From positions 1-40,300 of the forward strand of contig MHAK01000129.1 in the NCBI GenBank assembly GCA_001802945.1: a stretch of 40,300 bases of DNA, read 5' to 3'. Made by a program: the position numbers and the translations under genes. Source of the DNA: Ignavibacteria bacterium RIFCSPLOWO2_12_FULL_56_21 (lineage in GTDB: Bacteria > Bacteroidota > Ignavibacteria > UBA10030). The notes below the pieces were generated by a model, which was given only the letters and a program-made list of their open reading frames with translations, did no database searches and was not told where the DNA came from. Shown one piece after another: positions 1,061 to 26,759 of the stretch (its first letter is position 1; the number at the start of each line of letters is the position of its first letter).

Positions 1061-1119
1061 CATTCGTGTTCATTAGTGTATCGAGCTATGCCAAACATTC
1101 GTGTCCATTCGTGGACGAT
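1061..1119 (+). repeat. Dispersed 59-bp repeat, copy 1
   Basis: This copy matches 1209-1267 with seven differences by eye and matches the reverse complement of 20057-20117. It starts cattcgtgttcattagtgta and ends cattcgtggacgat. Confidence 0.8.
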
Positions 1120-1208
1120 TTTTACCAAAGAGCCCTCTTACGTAATAGCCTTTTCCACGAATCAACACGAATAAGAACGAATGAACACGAATACATATTC
1201 CCATACTT

Positions 1209-1267
1209 CATTCATGTACATTAGTGTATTGAGCTATACCGAGCATTCGTGTCCATTCGTGGATGAT
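1209..1267 (+). repeat. Dispersed 59-bp repeat, copy 2
   Basis: Direct copy of 1061-1119 with seven differences. Its last bases lie 14 bp from the stop codon of the SafE-like gene on the other strand, so on the minus strand it forms the immediate 3' region of that gene. Confidence 0.8.
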
Positions 1268-4627: not shown

Positions 4628-4649
4628 TAGCTTCCAGCTAAGATCACTA

Positions 4650-5330
4650 ATGGCGACAAAGCCCAAATCTCCGCACCAAGAGCAGCCGAAAACGGCTCCG
4701 CCAGCTGATGAAGGACGTTTCCGCGACGACACCGATGTTGCAGTTGATGCGATCCATCAGCGCATCGTCGGTCGCGAACAGACGGAACCAGAAGAGGGTT
4801 TCGAACCTCCGCCGGTCTGGGTGTGGGCTGCAAGCGTCGTGCTTCTCTTTGTCATGGGATTCTATCTCGGCCGCTACAGCGGGTCCTGGTCGACCGTGGC
4901 TCACGAAGTCGAGTCCCCCGCCGCGGCCGCAGCAGGACCGGTGAAGCGCACTGTGAACGGCACGGTCGTGTTCACCGGTGTCTGTCAGACCTGCCATCAG
5001 GCGGACGGCAACGGCGTGGCGGGACAATATCCGCCCCTCGCCGGGTCCGAATGGGTCACGCGCGATGCAGCGACTCCCATCCGCATTGTACTTTACGGGC
5101 TTGAGGGCCCTATCACAGTGAAGCAAACGGCGTTCAACAACAAGATGACCCCGTTCCACGACAAGCTGACCGACGACGAGATCGCCGCAGTTGTCACGCA
5201 CATCCGCTCGTCATGGAGAAACAGCGCAAGTGCGGTTACAGCAGAAGAAGTTGCCGACCTTCGGGCGAAATACGGGGTGCGCGGGTCATGGAGCGCAGCG
5301 GAGTTGTCTGCCGAGAGGTCAGCCCGATGA
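4650..5330 (+). CDS. ccoP: Membrane-anchored monohaem cytochrome c, CcoP equivalent
   Basis: With the ATG at 4650 the protein has 226 residues: a charged cytoplasmic N-terminus (1-54), one membrane helix (about 55-75, PPVWVWAASVVLLFVMGFYLG) and a periplasmic cytochrome c domain. There is a single haem motif CQTCH (Cys112, Cys115, His116) and one Met ligand candidate, Met166 in NNKMTPF. Canonical CcoP is dihaem, so this is a reduced version. Its position after ccoO and the charged N-terminus plus helix support the CcoP role; it could also be viewed as a cytochrome that docks ACIII to the oxidase. The stop overlaps the actA start (ATGA). Confidence 0.85.
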   Translation: MATKPKSPHQEQPKTAPPADEGRFRDDTDVAVDAIHQRIVGREQTEPEEGFEPPPVWVWAASVVLLFVMGFYLGRYSGSWSTVAHEVESPAAAAAGPVKRTVNGTVVFTGVCQTCHQADGNGVAGQYPPLAGSEWVTRDAATPIRIVLYGLEGPITVKQTAFNNKMTPFHDKLTDDEIAAVVTHIRSSWRNSASAVTAEEVADLRAKYGVRGSWSAAELSAERSAR

Positions 5331-17013: not shown

Positions 17014-17264
17014 ATGATGAAACCCGGTGAAGGTCAATGGTGAAGAGTGAATTGTCAATGGAAAATCGAAACTGTAAGGCGTGTGAATACACACCGTGCG
17101 ATTCTATATTCCAGGCCATTCACCAATGAACCAACCTCAGATTCACTCAGAGTATTTAACCATTTAACCAATTGACCAACATCGCCTACGCCCACGCATT
17201 CATCATCTTCTTGCTTCTTCTTCAGCCTCGACGTACCTTCGTAGAACGAATCTTTGCCCGCCAC
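17014..17264 (+). repeat. Repeat-rich spacer between ccoI and the response regulator
   Basis: Left words ggtgaaggtcaatggtgaag (17025) and gtgaattgtcaatgg (17046) are answered by right words ccattcaccaatgaacc (17116) and gattcactc (17140), giving an imperfect inverted repeat; aaccatttaaccaattgacc (17158) extends the right side. A small gtgtg/cacac hairpin lies near 17081. No gene is visible. A longer frame for the regulator opening at 17172 runs through this repeat and is discounted. Confidence 0.65.
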
Positions 17265-17936
17265 ATGGTTTCCGCCTCAGCTGCTGTCGAACAACGACAG
17301 ATCGAAGTCTGGCTCATCGACGACAATCAGGAGTATACGACGGTCGTCGCCGAAGCGATCAACCTCTCGAGCGGAGCTGTATGCACAGCGACGTACTCGC
17401 GTTGCGAGCCCGCGTTTGAAGCGCTCCGCAAAGGTACGCCGGCCCCTAATGTGCTGCTGCTCGACATCGGACTTCCCGGCATCGGCGGAATTCAGGCGAT
17501 CGAGACTTTCAAAGAATTTTCGCCGAGCATGCAGATCATCATGCTCACCGTGTACGACATGGATGAAAAGGTGTCGAGCGCCGTTCAGCGCGGGGCGTCG
17601 GGGTACCTCCTCAAGACATCGGACATTGATGGAATTCTCAGGGCGGTCCATTCGACAGTTCAGGGAGGCATGCCCCTCGACCCGATGGTGACGCGCAATC
17701 TCATTCAGAGCATCCAGGTGCCCCGCCCTCGTGAAGGAAATACATACGGACTCACGGATAGGGAATTGCAGATTCTTCGGTACCTCGTGGAAGGATACTC
17801 ATTTCAGGAGATTGCGAACAGAATGTTCATCAGTGTTTGGACGGTGAACACGCATGTCAACCGGATCAACGAGAAGTTGGACGTCCATAGCCGCAGTGTA
17901 GCAGTTGTGAAAGCTTTAAAGGAGGGATTGATCTAG
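17265..17936 (+). CDS. NarL/LuxR-family response regulator
   Basis: From the ATG at 17265 the protein has 223 residues. The receiver domain has the acidic pair Asp19/Asp20 (VWLIDDNQEY), the phosphoacceptor Asp67 (LLLDIGLPG), the switch Thr in IIMLTVYD and the Lys in GYLLKTSD. The C-terminal LuxR-type helix-turn-helix reads LTDRELQILRYLVEGYSFQEIANRMFISVWTVNTHVNRINEKL. No sensor kinase lies nearby, so it is an orphan in this window. Family members activate or repress transcription after phosphorylation. It follows ccoI on the same strand, so redox or oxygen control of the operon is conceivable but only inferred. A strong terminator follows. Confidence 0.92.
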   Translation: MVSASAAVEQRQIEVWLIDDNQEYTTVVAEAINLSSGAVCTATYSRCEPAFEALRKGTPAPNVLLLDIGLPGIGGIQAIETFKEFSPSMQIIMLTVYDMDEKVSSAVQRGASGYLLKTSDIDGILRAVHSTVQGGMPLDPMVTRNLIQSIQVPRPREGNTYGLTDRELQILRYLVEGYSFQEIANRMFISVWTVNTHVNRINEKLDVHSRSVAVVKALKEGLI

Positions 17937-17968
17937 TTCTACAAAAAACAGGAATGTGGCGTAAATTT

Positions 17969-18012
17969 AGAAATTTCGACGGTCGCTTTTTGTGCCGCCG
18001 AAATTTCTTTTT
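17969..18012 (+). terminator. Intrinsic terminator after the response regulator
   Basis: The stem agaaatttcgacgg (17969-17982) pairs with ccgccgaaatttct (17995-18008) with one G-T/U pair, loop of 12, followed by TTTTT to 18012. It lies 33 bp after the regulator stop. Confidence 0.85.
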
Positions 18013-18034
18013 GGAGAATCACTAATATTAGCGA

Positions 18035-18064
18035 TTGCCAGCACCCCCCGACAACTGCTATATT
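18035..18064 (+). promoter_or_regulatory. Candidate sigma-70-type promoter upstream of the structured leader
   Basis: TTGCCA at 18035-18040 and TATATT at 18059-18064 are separated by 18 bp. Transcription would start near 18071, about 16 bases before the first stem of the structure at 18087. It follows directly on the terminator of the previous gene. Sequence match only. Confidence 0.5.
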
Positions 18065-18086
18065 GTGCCCGCGTCCCACTCACCAT

Positions 18087-18165
18087 GAGGAGCGGGATTA
18101 CAATATGAGTTCCCTGAGGGGGGATATTGCCCCGCTCCTCTCTTCTTTAAACTTATCCCCCCTCA
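18087..18165 (+). promoter_or_regulatory. Structured leader RNA, possible H-type pseudoknot
   Basis: Stem 1 is a perfect 10-bp pairing of gaggagcggg (18087-18096) with cccgctcctc (18131-18140). Stem 2 is a perfect 12-bp pairing of tgaggggggata (18115-18126), which lies in the loop of stem 1, with tatcccccctca (18154-18165), which lies outside it. This is either a pseudoknot or a pair of competing folds; an inner caatat/atattg stem (18101-18106 with 18124-18129) competes with stem 2. I do not recognise a known riboswitch class. The next gene is DUF72 at 18341. It could instead be a small RNA. Confidence 0.55.
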
Positions 18166-18284
18166 ATCTTCGAAGAATCACTGCGTCCGTTCTGTCTTTC
18201 CCCTCTCTGGTATCACGGTTCTTCCAAACAGATTCCATTGATTTTCTCGTAGAATTCAATAACACATTTTTGTCGCTATCTATA

Positions 18285-18313
18285 TTGACAATACGACATA
18301 AATGTCATACATT
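18285..18313 (+). promoter_or_regulatory. Second candidate promoter close to the DUF72 gene
   Basis: TTGACA at 18285-18290 and TACATT at 18308-18313 with a 17-bp spacer. The -10 element lies in the left arm of the inverted repeat at 18306-18343, so a protein bound to that repeat would block it. If this promoter is used, the transcript starts near 18320 and lacks the left arm of the hairpin. Confidence 0.4.
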
Positions 18314-18343
18314 CCTCCTGGATTAAATCAGGAGGAATGTATG
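18306..18343 (+). promoter_or_regulatory. Perfect 15-bp inverted repeat over the ribosome binding site of DUF72
   Basis: catacattcctcctg (18306-18320) and caggaggaatgtatg (18329-18343) pair without mismatch around an 8-nt loop. The right arm contains the Shine-Dalgarno sequence aggagg (18330-18335) and the ATG start (18341-18343). As RNA it would hide the initiation region; as DNA it is a palindromic operator over a promoter. Confidence 0.85.
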
Positions 18344-19342
18344 GAGCGGGTTCATGTGGGAATGGGGGGGTGGGACATTCCCCCATTTGAAAAGGTCTTT
18401 TATCCTCAGGCGACACGCGGCTTCCGGAAACTCCGCTATTACTCGCAATTCTTCGACAGCGTCGAGATCAACGCCACGTTCTACAGCACGGCGTTTTCAC
18501 CCGACCAGGTCCTCCGCTGGCTTGACGACGTCGACTCAAACCCACGGTTCATCTTCACTGTAAAACTCTACCGCGGATTCACTCACACCTACGATGCGGA
18601 TCGTAAGAATTTTCTCACAACGCATCGCCTCCTCGATCTTCTTCGCTCTCACGGAAAGTTCGGCGGACTTGTCATGCAATTCCCGTATTCTTTCGTGAAC
18701 GGCTCAGACCAACGTCGCTATTTGATGGGGCTCGCCCGATCGTTCGGATCCTTCCGACTGTTCACAGAGGTCCGTCACAATTCCTGGGACAGTCCATTAA
18801 TGTTTAATTTCTTCCAGGAAAACGGCATGCATCTCGTTAACGTCGACCTCCCTCAAATCCGACGCAACATGCCGTTCCACGAAACTGCGTGGGGTGGAGC
18901 TTCATACTATCGGTTGATGGGAAGGAATGCGGCAACATGGGAACAGCCATACCGGCTGGAGCCGGATGGTCGTCATGTCGTCAGCGACCGTTATTTGTAT
19001 CTCTACGAATCGAGTGAACTTGAACGATTGGCAGAAGCGGTGAAGAAGGTTCGGGAGCAGGGGAATGAAACGTTCGTCGTCTTCCACAACGACCCTGATG
19101 CACAATCACTGCTGAACGGATTTCAATTCCGACACATGTTGACGAGAAGGAAAGTGATGGTTCCCGACAGACTGCTTCACAGATTTCCGCGACTCGGTCC
19201 GATCAGCGTGTCTGTGAATGTAGGACATCCGTTGTTTTCTGGTGAGCTTCCGCCGTCACCCAGAAACACCGGTGGAAGTGTTCCTCAGTCGGCTATTGGA
19301 TCTTCTCCAAGCATTCCGGCCCATCATTCTTTGAATTATTGA
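18341..19342 (+). CDS. DUF72 family protein
   Basis: A 333-residue protein of the DUF72 family (TIM-barrel fold, biochemical role not established). Family features: GMGGWDIPPFEKVFYPQ near the N-terminus, FDSVEINATFYSTAF, FIFTVKLYRGFTH, GGLVMQFPYSF, FTEVRHNSWDSP and ASYYRLMGRNAATW, and the late TFVVFHNDPDAQSLLNG. The ATG at 18341 is chosen because aggagg lies at ideal distance; an earlier in-frame start at 18302 would cross the hairpin arm. The last 50 bp overlap the 3' end of the convergent SRAP gene, and the C-terminal 60 residues or so, encoded there, do not resemble the family core. Confidence 0.9.
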   Translation: MERVHVGMGGWDIPPFEKVFYPQATRGFRKLRYYSQFFDSVEINATFYSTAFSPDQVLRWLDDVDSNPRFIFTVKLYRGFTHTYDADRKNFLTTHRLLDLLRSHGKFGGLVMQFPYSFVNGSDQRRYLMGLARSFGSFRLFTEVRHNSWDSPLMFNFFQENGMHLVNVDLPQIRRNMPFHETAWGGASYYRLMGRNAATWEQPYRLEPDGRHVVSDRYLYLYESSELERLAEAVKKVREQGNETFVVFHNDPDAQSLLNGFQFRHMLTRRKVMVPDRLLHRFPRLGPISVSVNVGHPLFSGELPPSPRNTGGSVPQSAIGSSPSIPAHHSLNY

Positions 19343-20024
19343 CGTTTTTCGAAACCGGGTATGCTTCCATGTTCTTCTCGGGATATGGAGCACAAAGCCG
19401 CATCAACGAATCGGTGTCCTTGTTCTCCCTGTCGAGCCAGGCATCGTACGACTTTTCATCCAGGATTACCGGCATTCGCCGGTGAATTGTGGCCATGAGT
19501 TTGTTCGGTTCCGTGGTGATGATCGTGAACGATGGAACCTCCTTCCCTTCTTCTCCTTTCCAGATTGAGAACAGTCCTGCAAACATGAACGATGTTCCGT
19601 CTTTCATTCGAATAGCCATCGGCTGTTTTGGCGGTTTTCCGGAAGGAAGCGGCGGTTCATCGTTCAGTACCTTCCATTCGTAAAACGCATCGGCGGGAAT
19701 AAGGCATCTGGACGACCGGAAGTACGGCGCATAGAGTCGCGATGTGTCGAGCGTCTCGGCCTTTGCGTTAAACGTCTTCAGCGGAGTTCCGTCTTTGCCC
19801 TTCAACGGCTTTCCGTCCTTCGACCCGTGCGGTATCAACCACCACTGCATTGTGTCGGCCCGGAGTTCGTTGTTCCGTACGGCGATCACGGGGAGGAATT
19901 GCATTGGCGCGGCGTTGTACTTCGGAATGCCTTCGAATGCTGCGTCGGCATTTGAGAGATTCTTGAATAATTGCTCGGTCGCATGGTCCCGGGCGGTCCT
20001 GATGACGGCGTATCTACCGCACAT
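19293..20024 (-). CDS. SRAP (SOS response-associated peptidase, YedK/HMCES) protein
   Basis: A 243-residue protein that starts MCGRY, so Cys2 becomes the N-terminal catalytic Cys after Met removal. Other SRAP landmarks are present: YNAAPMQFLPVI, WWLIPHGSKD, FNAKAETLD (Asn/Glu region), RCLIPADAFYEWK (catalytic-site Glu) and TIHRRMPVIL (active-site His). Family knowledge: SRAP proteins form a stable thiazolidine crosslink with abasic sites in single-stranded DNA and so protect them during replication. The frame continues upstream to 20102, but that part is repeat-derived and Cys2 requires the 20024 start. Confidence 0.95.
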   Translation of the reverse strand: MCGRYAVIRTARDHATEQLFKNLSNADAAFEGIPKYNAAPMQFLPVIAVRNNELRADTMQWWLIPHGSKDGKPLKGKDGTPLKTFNAKAETLDTSRLYAPYFRSSRCLIPADAFYEWKVLNDEPPLPSGKPPKQPMAIRMKDGTSFMFAGLFSIWKGEEGKEVPSFTIITTEPNKLMATIHRRMPVILDEKSYDAWLDRENKDTDSLMRLCAPYPEKNMEAYPVSKNVNNSKNDGPECLEKIQ

Positions 20025-20056
20025 GAGCTTGGTTCTCCGGAGCGCAATGAAAAGAG

Positions 20057-20117
20057 ATCGTCCACGAATGGACACGAATACTCGGTCATAGCTCCAAAAC
20101 ACTAATGAACACGAATG
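20057..20117 (-). repeat. Dispersed 59-bp repeat, copy 3 (inverted relative to copies 1 and 2)
   Basis: The segment from atcgtccacgaatggacacg to actaatgaacacgaatg matches the reverse complement of 1061-1119, about 19 kb away, with a few differences and small length change in the middle. It lies just upstream of the SRAP gene. Confidence 0.8.
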
Positions 20118-20291
20118 AATGGGAAAATGCTTTAGTGTTCATTCGTACTTATTCGTGTTAATTCGTGGAAAATGCTTCTAATAAGAAGGCCTTTTGGAAA
20201 ATATCGACCACGAATGGACACGAATATACGAATTTGTAATGTTTCTTCGATGTCCATACATTATAAGACATTCACTTCGTGTACTTCGTGG
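20118..20291. repeat. Further cacgaat/attcgtg palindromes between SRAP and DUF4159
   Basis: tagtgttcattcgt (from 20132) and cttattcgtgttaattcgtgg (20148) are the inverted counterpart of 20057-20117, so the two together form a hairpin. A second pair follows: ccacgaatggacacgaat (20208-20225) with cacttcgtgtacttcgtgg (20273-20291). The last arm runs into the start of the DUF4159 gene. Confidence 0.75.
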
Positions 20292-25134: not shown

Positions 25135-25691
25135 GGGTGAATCCTTTCGTTGAAGCGTGGAGGATGTTCCCGCAGCGATCTGCGCCCCTCCCAGGCTCGC
25201 TTCAGTGCTAACGAAGCTTCTACCTACGATGGATACCTGGGTGAGGATGCCAACGAAAGGATGAAACTGAGACGTGCTACTGTAGCTACAAGCGGTCAGA
25301 GCGGGGGCCCGGTGACCCAGGCCTTTCTCGGTCAGCCAGCGGGTATGTATTTGAGCAGGTAATATAGGGGGATTGGCGCTGGAAAGCAAGAGGCGAGGGA
25401 CGAGGGGAAAAGCGGGAATGGCGGAATAATGGAATGATGGAATGGTTAAATGGCTTGCGGAGGGCTGAGTTGATTAAATGGTTGGACGGTTAATACAGCG
25501 TAATGCCGCGTTCTGGGATGCGTAATGCGGGATGCGTTATTGGGGAATAGGGAGAAGTGGCGCATTCGCAGGATGGCGCGGAGAGTGCCCGGTTCCGAGT
25601 TCCGGGTGCAGACCAGGAAAGTGCGATCAGCGCCATGCTCTTCGCGCTCTCCATGCTTGACTGATGCGACAATTTTGTCGTATCTTGCCGA
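25135..25691. repeat. 557-bp gene-free spacer with repeat words
   Basis: No gene is supported on either strand; the open frames overlap the csp leader or the radical SAM gene. The part near the csp gene is its presumed leader and promoter region. From 25420 to about 25560 it consists of degenerate words: ggaatgatggaatgg (25431), gttaaatgg/gattaaatggttgg (25445, 25470) and gggatgcgtaatgcgggatg (25514). These resemble in style, not in sequence, the arms of the four-helix-bundle elements. Confidence 0.65.
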
Positions 25692-26759
25692 ATGACAATC
25701 CCGCCGACTGGTCGCAGCACATCGCTCAATCCTGGAAATCGGTTCGAGGCGCTGCACATTGGTCCAGCGCCCGATGATATCGCAGGCTATTTCGAACCTC
25801 CTGACGCCGATCGCCGCGAGCCGACGATCTTCTTTCGCGACCGATCGCTGAGCATACTTTCGAAGAACGACAGCCCCGACCTCGGATTTGCGTACAGCAT
25901 GAATCCATACCGGGGATGCGAACATGGTTGTGTCTACTGCTACGCGCGTCCCAGTCATGAGTATCTCGGGTTTTCTTCGGGCCTGGATTTCGAAACGAAG
26001 ATCCTCGTCAAATATGACGCCCCCGACCTTCTCGCGCAGGCGTTTGACAAAACTTCGTGGCAGCCTCAGGTCGTCGCCCTCTCGGGCAACACAGATTGCT
26101 ATCAACCGGTGGAGCGAACACTAGGGATCACGCGGAAGTGCCTCGAGGTATTCCTCCGATATCGGAATCCCGTCGGCATCATCACGAAGAACGCGTTGAT
26201 CCAGCGTGATATCGACATCTTAAGCCGGTTGTCCGAGCTCAACCTGGTCTTCGTTTCGGTCTCGATCACGACGATACGCCAGGAGCTGGCCAGAAGCATG
26301 GAGCCTCGAACTGCTTCGGTCCGCAAACGATTTGAGACCATCCACCGTTTACATGAAGCGGGCGTTCCAGTGGGAGTGAACATCGCACCCATCATCCCCG
26401 GGCTGAACGACGAGGAGATACCCGCGCTTCTGACCGAGGCCGCCCGCTGCGGAGCGAGTCGCGCAAGCCACACGATGATCCGACTTCCTTACGCTGTCAA
26501 GGACCTGTTCATTGAATGGCTCCAACGGACCCTCCCCGATCGATCCGGAAAGATCGTCGCTCGCATTCGATCCATACGGGGAGGCGGGTTGTCGAGCTCC
26601 GAGTACGGCAAACGGATGACCGGCGAAGGGGAAATTGCCGAAGCGATCTCGCGGTTGTTTCGCATGACTTGCACGCGCCTGGGACTGAACACCTCACGCG
26701 TGGCGCTGGCGACTACGCATTTCCGAAGGCCGGGCCCGGAACAGTTACGCTTTCTCTAA
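25692..26759 (+). CDS. PA0069-family radical SAM protein
   Basis: A 355-residue protein with the radical SAM cluster motif C-x3-C-x2-C (Cys76, Cys80, Cys83 in YRGCEHGCVYCYARPSHEYLG), the arrangement of PA0069/Rv2578c-type and spore-photolyase-like proteins. Further features: NPYRGC before the cluster, LSGNTDCYQPVE, ITKNALIQRDIDIL, VSVSITT and VNIAPIIPGLND. The substrate is unknown. It stands alone between two repeat-bearing spacers; a palindrome follows directly after the stop. Confidence 0.93.
   Translation: MTIPPTGRSTSLNPGNRFEALHIGPAPDDIAGYFEPPDADRREPTIFFRDRSLSILSKNDSPDLGFAYSMNPYRGCEHGCVYCYARPSHEYLGFSSGLDFETKILVKYDAPDLLAQAFDKTSWQPQVVALSGNTDCYQPVERTLGITRKCLEVFLRYRNPVGIITKNALIQRDIDILSRLSELNLVFVSVSITTIRQELARSMEPRTASVRKRFETIHRLHEAGVPVGVNIAPIIPGLNDEEIPALLTEAARCGASRASHTMIRLPYAVKDLFIEWLQRTLPDRSGKIVARIRSIRGGGLSSSEYGKRMTGEGEIAEAISRLFRMTCTRLGLNTSRVALATTHFRRPGPEQLRFL

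Follow-up and report, generated by a model that had tools for sequence, protein, structure and literature searches.

A promoter-like site and hairpin retained in a same-genus relative, and a candidate pseudoknot seen in one genome, upstream of an Ignavibacteria DUF72 gene

The DNA between a response regulator gene and a DUF72 gene of Ignavibacteria bacterium RIFCSPLOWO2_12_FULL_56_21 (the window, here and below, being the whole stretch of 40,300 nucleotides that was analysed) contains two perfect interleaved stems, S1 and S2. The first of these and the promoter-like site in front of it (P1) are retained in a relative of the same genus, while the second has no local counterpart there. The reading to which we give most weight, still a tentative one, is that P1 drives a hairpin RNA limited to the genus and separate from DUF72, that S2 is a recent local addition, and that DUF72 is expressed from a downstream promoter (P2); the readings without RNA function and as an insulator come next. 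Should P1 and S1 prove real, what they contribute is a single structured RNA, narrow and so far uncharacterised, and on present evidence the pseudoknot should not count as a DUF72 riboswitch candidate.

Interleaved stems and their folding

An inverted-repeat search returned, at 100% Watson-Crick complementarity, both of the perfect stems that an earlier, sequence-only reading of this DNA had described: S1 (GAGGAGCGGG/CCCGCTCCTC) joins 18087-18096 to 18131-18140 over 10 bp, and S2 (TGAGGGGGGATA/TATCCCCCCTCA) joins 18115-18126 to 18154-18165 over 12 bp, all four arms being given on the plus strand. They interleave in the H-type manner, as that reading had it, with loops of 18 nt (18097-18114), 4 nt (18127-18130) and 13 nt (18141-18153), which in our judgement leave enough space for a pseudoknot. 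This interleaving is not a chance outcome of base composition: counting spans below 100 nt, a pair of interleaved stems of at least 10 and at least 12 bp appeared in 0/2000 dinucleotide shuffles of 17937-18305 and in 0/2000 of 18065-18180, and S1/S2 is its single occurrence in 300,108 bases of the same genome (the window plus 20 stretches), where 58 stems are 10 bp or longer and 15 are 12 bp or longer.

The computed energies allow either the pseudoknot or alternative folds. Without constraints the element folds into a 5' hairpin plus S2 (-33.4 kcal/mol) with S1 absent, and a fold containing S1 and inner stems is a close rival (-31.3 kcal/mol); the competing inner stem of the sequence-only reading is present when S1 is forced in this way. 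Since S1 and S2, each evaluated singly, sum to -41.7 kcal/mol, the pseudoknot is potentially the most stable of these states. When the chain was folded as it grew, in steps of 5 nt, S1 was the best fold at 18140-18160 and S2 from 18165 on. Compared with shuffled sequences the 116-nt element is moderately more stable (z -2.17), and a 316-nt sequence extending into DUF72 is clearly more stable (z -4.25). All of these are the energies of one sequence and not functional evidence.

No known riboswitch class could be matched to the structure by the sequence-only reading, and Rfam covariance scans agree, the window giving 0 matches at gathering score; relaxing the threshold to E values of up to 5 for the leader and its counterpart in the relative yielded only matches far below threshold, chiefly to miRNA families.

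Tracts rich in CACGAATG/CATTCGTG-like repeats were seen in several of the genome stretches examined (window positions 1097-1252 and 20098-20159; L086, L089 and L092), and these yield many interleaved stems of 8-10 bp.

Conservation of the promoter-like site and the first stem

Upstream of the element lies a LuxR/NarL-type response regulator gene (17172-17936, plus strand; Pfam Response_reg and GerE). Among the genomes searched, the order response regulator then DUF72 is shared only by G001, one of the two genomes of this genus in the collection, whose syntenic locus (L047) forms the comparison set for the leader. Response-regulator homologues in 32 family genomes, many of whose assemblies are fragmented, have DUF72 adjacent only in G001, and in G020 the two genes lie about 7.6 kb apart on one contig. 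Conservation of S1 therefore amounts to one comparison, just one relative carrying the locus.

The response regulator gene is followed by a terminator-like hairpin (17969-18008, plus strand), whose arms (17969-17982/17995-18008) are 93% complementary around a 12-nt loop and precede TTTT, a run of five T once the arm's final base is counted. The strong terminator that the sequence-only reading placed here is present as an inverted repeat with its T tract, but the terminator scan leaves it unlisted because the 12-nt loop is over its limit. The promoter claimed at 18035-18064 is present as a promoter-like site: P1 (TTGCCA-18-TATATT, plus strand) fits the promoter consensus at 10/12 positions and recurs in L047 with its 18-nt spacing unchanged, but the consensus match by itself is weak, since scanning 1.8 kb gave three P1-grade sites against 1.2 expected (sd 0.9). 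A 20-bp near-palindrome (18/20; 18017-18036) that extends two bases into the -35 box of P1 is a possible operator and could bind the adjacent response regulator; the L047 sequence is not palindromic by eye.

The intergenic regions of the window and L047 share two blocks, one covering P1 and S1 and the other being the P2 operator. The former (18015-18141 against L047 2624-2750) aligns with gaps at a score of 163, where the maximum of 1000 shuffles was 123, and the alignment stops at 18141, one base beyond S1. Split in two, its P1 part scores 80 (0/1000 shuffles as good) and its RNA part 92 (1/1000, or 3/2000 with a narrower cut); the intergenic stretches before and after the block are weaker (87/1000 and 46/1000 shuffles as good).

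In L047, S1 becomes GGAGGGCGGG/CTCGCTCTTC (2697-2706 and 2740-2749) and retains 10/10 pairs, seven Watson-Crick and three G-U, in a register guided by equal loop lengths. Five substitutions separate the two stems and break no pair, with one compensatory change from G-C to A-U and three changes to G-U; full pairing was reached in 0/5000 shuffles at the exact register and in 18/5000 within two bases. The pairing is complete on the plus strand (10/10) and partial on the minus strand (7/10), which fits a plus-strand RNA from P1. While the arms are 15/20 identical, the loop up to the G tract, 19 nt in both species, is identical at 3/19 positions; the tract itself, GAGGGGGG (18116-18123, plus strand, within the S1 loop and the 5' arm of S2), is 8/8 identical to L047 2726-2733.

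Besides equal loop lengths, the register rests on the unconstrained fold of L047, which forms the same stem and lengthens it (the 85-nt L047 element being barely above shuffles in stability, z -1.05), and on an unfiltered covariance search, in which a model of S1 made from the window alone found the L047 site (8.3 bits; E 0.016 for the 161 bases searched). The same model did not return that site in a search of the whole G001 genome, MAFFT did not place the 5' arm of L047 in the pairing register, and in the gapped local alignment a gap falls inside this arm. It is also a caveat on S1 that purine-rich and pyrimidine-rich arms pair easily once G-U is allowed.

The second stem behaves differently. 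At the aligned register its complement in L047 makes 6/12 pairs and no local partner was found, the best pairing being 7/12 for segments starting at 2750-2800 (about 50 nt) and 9/12 up to 2900 (150 nt). For the L047 G tract, predicted distant partners lie close to P2 and the ribosome site of that locus (-18.1 and -15.1 kcal/mol, against -24.6 kcal/mol for S2 in the window), and a non-local second helix may form there. The sequence-only reading had staked its structure on the paired segments being present in related leaders: those of S1 are, with all ten pairs, and those of S2 have no local counterpart in L047. Because of this lack the pseudoknot is not seen conserved, and as described it appears restricted to its own genome as far as the data reach. 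Nor could the architecture of a switching RNA, which the same reading saw in it, be upheld, given no sign of switching or of a ligand, no Rfam class and an S2 without a local equivalent in the relative.

Our preferred reading is as follows. P1, if active, would produce a short noncoding transcript from a predicted start near 18071, the first 70 nt or so of which would be the S1 hairpin with its G-rich loop, and promoter and hairpin would have been kept as a unit within the genus (two genomes). This unit is most likely a separate small structured RNA, or an untranslated upstream transcript, rather than a regulatory leader of DUF72. A perfect complement to the G-rich loop (S2) would then have been gained 3' of S1 in the window's genome only, so that the pseudoknot can close there. 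No clear terminator ends the proposed RNA, S1 being followed by TCTTCTTT in the window and by TTCCGGGG in L047.

That the block has no RNA function at all is unlikely in our view, though it is the strongest of the alternatives. P1 would then be a weak promoter or a conserved DNA site, the pairing of S1 would be partly luck in G/C-biased arms, and S2 would be a local inverted copy of GAGGGGGG. S2 is indeed perfect and yet lacks a local counterpart in L047, the same intergenic region has another perfect inverted repeat (15 bp), and no RNA family matches. In addition, the best ungapped piece of the P1 block (18023-18072) reaches a score of 12, no higher than the 95% level of shuffles, and the probability that five substitutions preserve every pair of S1 runs, under a simple substitution model, from 0.002 to 0.05 depending on transition bias, the upper value belonging to the all-transition model. 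What weighs against this alternative is that the block behind the promoter stands above most shuffles once gaps are allowed, as given above, that the S1 arms are far better preserved than the loop, and that the pairing is strand-asymmetric.

Searches for further relatives covered the genome itself, the genus, the family and the order. BLAST of the leader found no second copy of the element in the first three, its only matches in the genome itself at E <=0.001, besides self, being the 15-bp palindrome reversed and one copy of the P2 operator. The S1 covariance model built on the window alone, run against 32 family genomes, missed G001 and gave its best match outside the window's genome at E 0.078 (G006). 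A pattern search matched 3/98 genomes of the order, namely the window's, G001 and G067; the last match (L114), upstream of an elongation-factor-type GTPase ORF read as LepA, was rejected as a homologue, about one chance match being expected by our estimate and the reversed-pattern control giving 0. The L047 block, used as a DNA query against the same 98 genomes, matched 5/98 at E <=0.01, G001 and four weak ones. Rejected as homologues were L118, L120 and L121, coding-like by eye, and L119, which is intergenic and of terminator-like shape and whose similarity is too weak; Rfam scans of L119 and L114 gave nothing above threshold. L119, from another genus, shares with L047 an intergenic CTCGCGGGGGAACCGACTC-like sequence (about 1441-1540) that has a T run at its end. 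A coding reading of the element itself, through the overlapping ORF 18063-18326, was set aside on the low identity of the S1 loop (3/19) and on frames that look unlike in the two species. Among the open papers found on DUF72 with SOS, pseudoknot or LexA, and on polB2 with LexA and operator, none describes the element or the operator in its title or the opening of its abstract.

Control of DUF72 from a downstream promoter

The DUF72 gene (18341-19342, plus strand; PF01904, E 1.4e-44) belongs to a family with no assigned function that we know of, matched in 37/61 genomes searched, the window's included. Its likely main promoter, from the scan and from conservation, is P2 (18285-18313, plus strand; TTGACA-17-TACATT), which overlaps the operator CGACATAAATGTCA and whose -35 box starts 144 nt beyond S1. 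In an ungapped comparison with L047 this operator scores 15, above all 200 shuffles. More widely, a GACAnnnnTGTC palindrome lies within 600 bases upstream of DUF72 in 17/29 loci, usually inside a TTGACA-17-TATnnT promoter-like site (the 29 include the window and leave out L007, without upstream sequence, and 14 weaker matches without loci). At 11 of these 29 loci the upstream ORFs listed include a divergently encoded helix-turn-helix protein, always of a single type; the one from L008 carries HTH_3 and Peptidase_S24 domains (Pfam), which is a LexA/CI-like build. The genome under study encodes a LexA/CI-like repressor with the same two domains, 71% identical to that of L008 (G000 contig 115, 1193-1837; L122), on a different contig from DUF72.

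Copies of the CGACAnnnnTGTCG operator, exact or one base off, were seen before DUF72 (18285-18313), before an ORF on contig 109 and before a radical-SAM gene. The contig 109 copy (4634-4675; L003/L123) precedes an ORF that is RecA-like by eye and matches nothing in Pfam, NCBIfam or the PDB sequences, and the other copy in the window (25655-25690) precedes the radical-SAM gene at 25692 (PF04055). A family B polymerase gene (PF00136) follows the RecA-like ORF on the same strand at a distance of about 1 kb, but the two need not share an operon because an opposite-strand PDDEXK_3 ORF intervenes. From these shared sites a DNA-damage regulon comprising DUF72, the RecA-like ORF and the radical-SAM gene seems possible. 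A gene of the SRAP family (19296-20030, minus strand; PF02586, E 6.4e-63) converges on DUF72, and a passage of PMC11791011 places lexA, SRAP and DUF72 genes near polB2. Operator, LexA/CI-like repressor and this lexA/SRAP/DUF72 context suggest that DUF72 is most probably a DNA-damage gene transcribed from P2 under that repressor, and that its mRNA would begin past the element, near 18320. Being tied to a concrete operator that also stands before the RecA-like ORF and the radical-SAM gene, DUF72 offers a direct test of its timing.

A perfect 15-bp hairpin (18306-18343, plus strand; -26.0 kcal/mol) extends over the -10 region of P2, the AGGAGG ribosome site and the start codon of DUF72. Its 5' arm (18306-18320), all 15 bases of which pair across the ribosome site and start codon, is upstream of the predicted P2 start, so that only transcripts longer than the P2 mRNA can form it; the P2 mRNA, from its predicted start, would be without most or all of the arm. 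Read-through from P1 into DUF72 would thus be translationally silent, the ribosome site being sealed in this hairpin, and the pairing argues against P1 as a productive DUF72 promoter. None of 300 shuffles is as stable in the window. The hairpin is absent from L047, which has only an 8-bp repeat and where the 75 nt preceding the predicted P2 start do no better than shuffles at pairing with the ribosome site (230/300 as good). Among 15 DUF72 loci scored of 17 given, with predicted P2 starts and with ribosome sites from an automatic pick that erred at least in L031 and L032, 3 fold back at <=5/300 shuffles (the window 0, L006 0, L014 5), and L047 is not one of them; the fold-back is not a conserved trait of these loci.

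The sequence-only reading had taken the element for a leader RNA of DUF72. This is not supported: the conserved operator-promoter P2 lies downstream of the element, and any P1 transcript that reads through would have its ribosome site buried.

The hairpin could alternatively serve insulation: S1 and the following TCTTCTTT would act as a terminator or roadblock, the 15-bp hairpin would block translation of whatever reads through, and only repressor-controlled P2 mRNA would make DUF72. We regard this as rather improbable. The 10-bp stem of S1 is GC-rich, six of the eight bases after it are T, and both the position of the hairpin's 5' arm upstream of the predicted P2 start and the shuffle counts for the window, L006 and L014 agree with such a role, but the terminator scan lists nothing on the plus strand here and the T tract after S1 is not retained in L047, so that S1 lacks the conserved T tract of an intrinsic terminator. 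The fold-back, moreover, is confined to the three loci named, with the predicted starts and automatic ribosome sites already mentioned.

A cis-acting leader in the sense of the sequence-only reading is more doubtful still. Here a P1 mRNA would toggle among three states (S1, the pseudoknot, and S2 together with the 5' hairpin), the ribosome-site hairpin being its expression platform, and the close energies of these states, the singly summed stems, the formation of S1 before S2 as the chain grows and the very presence of a ribosome-site hairpin are in its favour, as is a possible pairing of the S1 3' arm with GGAGCGGG at the DUF72 start (18343-18350). Against it stand P2 and its conserved operator downstream of the element and the state of L047, where S2 has no local counterpart, GGAGCGGG is not retained at the DUF72 start, the 15-bp hairpin is absent (only the 8-bp repeat is there) and the pairing with the ribosome site is equalled by most shuffles. 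A genus-specific switch, in which S1, forming during transcription, competes with the fold made of the 5' hairpin and S2, and the pseudoknot decides whether transcription from P1 continues over the DNA-damage promoter P2, coupling the response regulator to the LexA-like regulon, strikes us as very improbable.

Comparison with known systems

Fold-back inhibition is a feature of IS10. In IS200, stem-loops, including at the ribosome site, stop or silence impinging transcripts, according to a passage of PMC3196728. The window resembles IS200 as it is portrayed there in that the DUF72 ribosome site would be hidden only in read-through mRNA, the 5' arm of the hairpin being upstream of the predicted start, and in that further structure lies upstream of the ribosome-site hairpin. 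Unlike these elements, DUF72 is not a transposase, no insertion element came to light at the locus in searches aimed at other features, and the terminator there is putative.

SAM-II, SAM-V and guanidine-III riboswitches are H-type pseudoknots, and marine alpha-proteobacteria and bacteroidetes are the reported sources of SAM-V, in the part of PMC6061858 drawn on here. With these the element has in common two interleaved stems in one short RNA. It differs from them, as far as they are described in that part, in its 10 and 12 perfect pairs, in having no Rfam match and no conserved ligand core that we could see, in a second stem without a local counterpart in the relative, and in that DUF72 has another promoter-like site with an operator.

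A further comparison is with the structured-RNA candidates drawn from GC-rich intergenic regions by comparison with other bacterial genomes, as summarized in an excerpt of PMC11109978: like them the element is structured, intergenic and without a known class, and unlike them its comparison is limited to two genomes.

On both sides of the block formed by P1, S1 and S2 stands a 14-nt direct repeat (18010-18023 and 18169-18182), its two copies identical at 12/14 positions.
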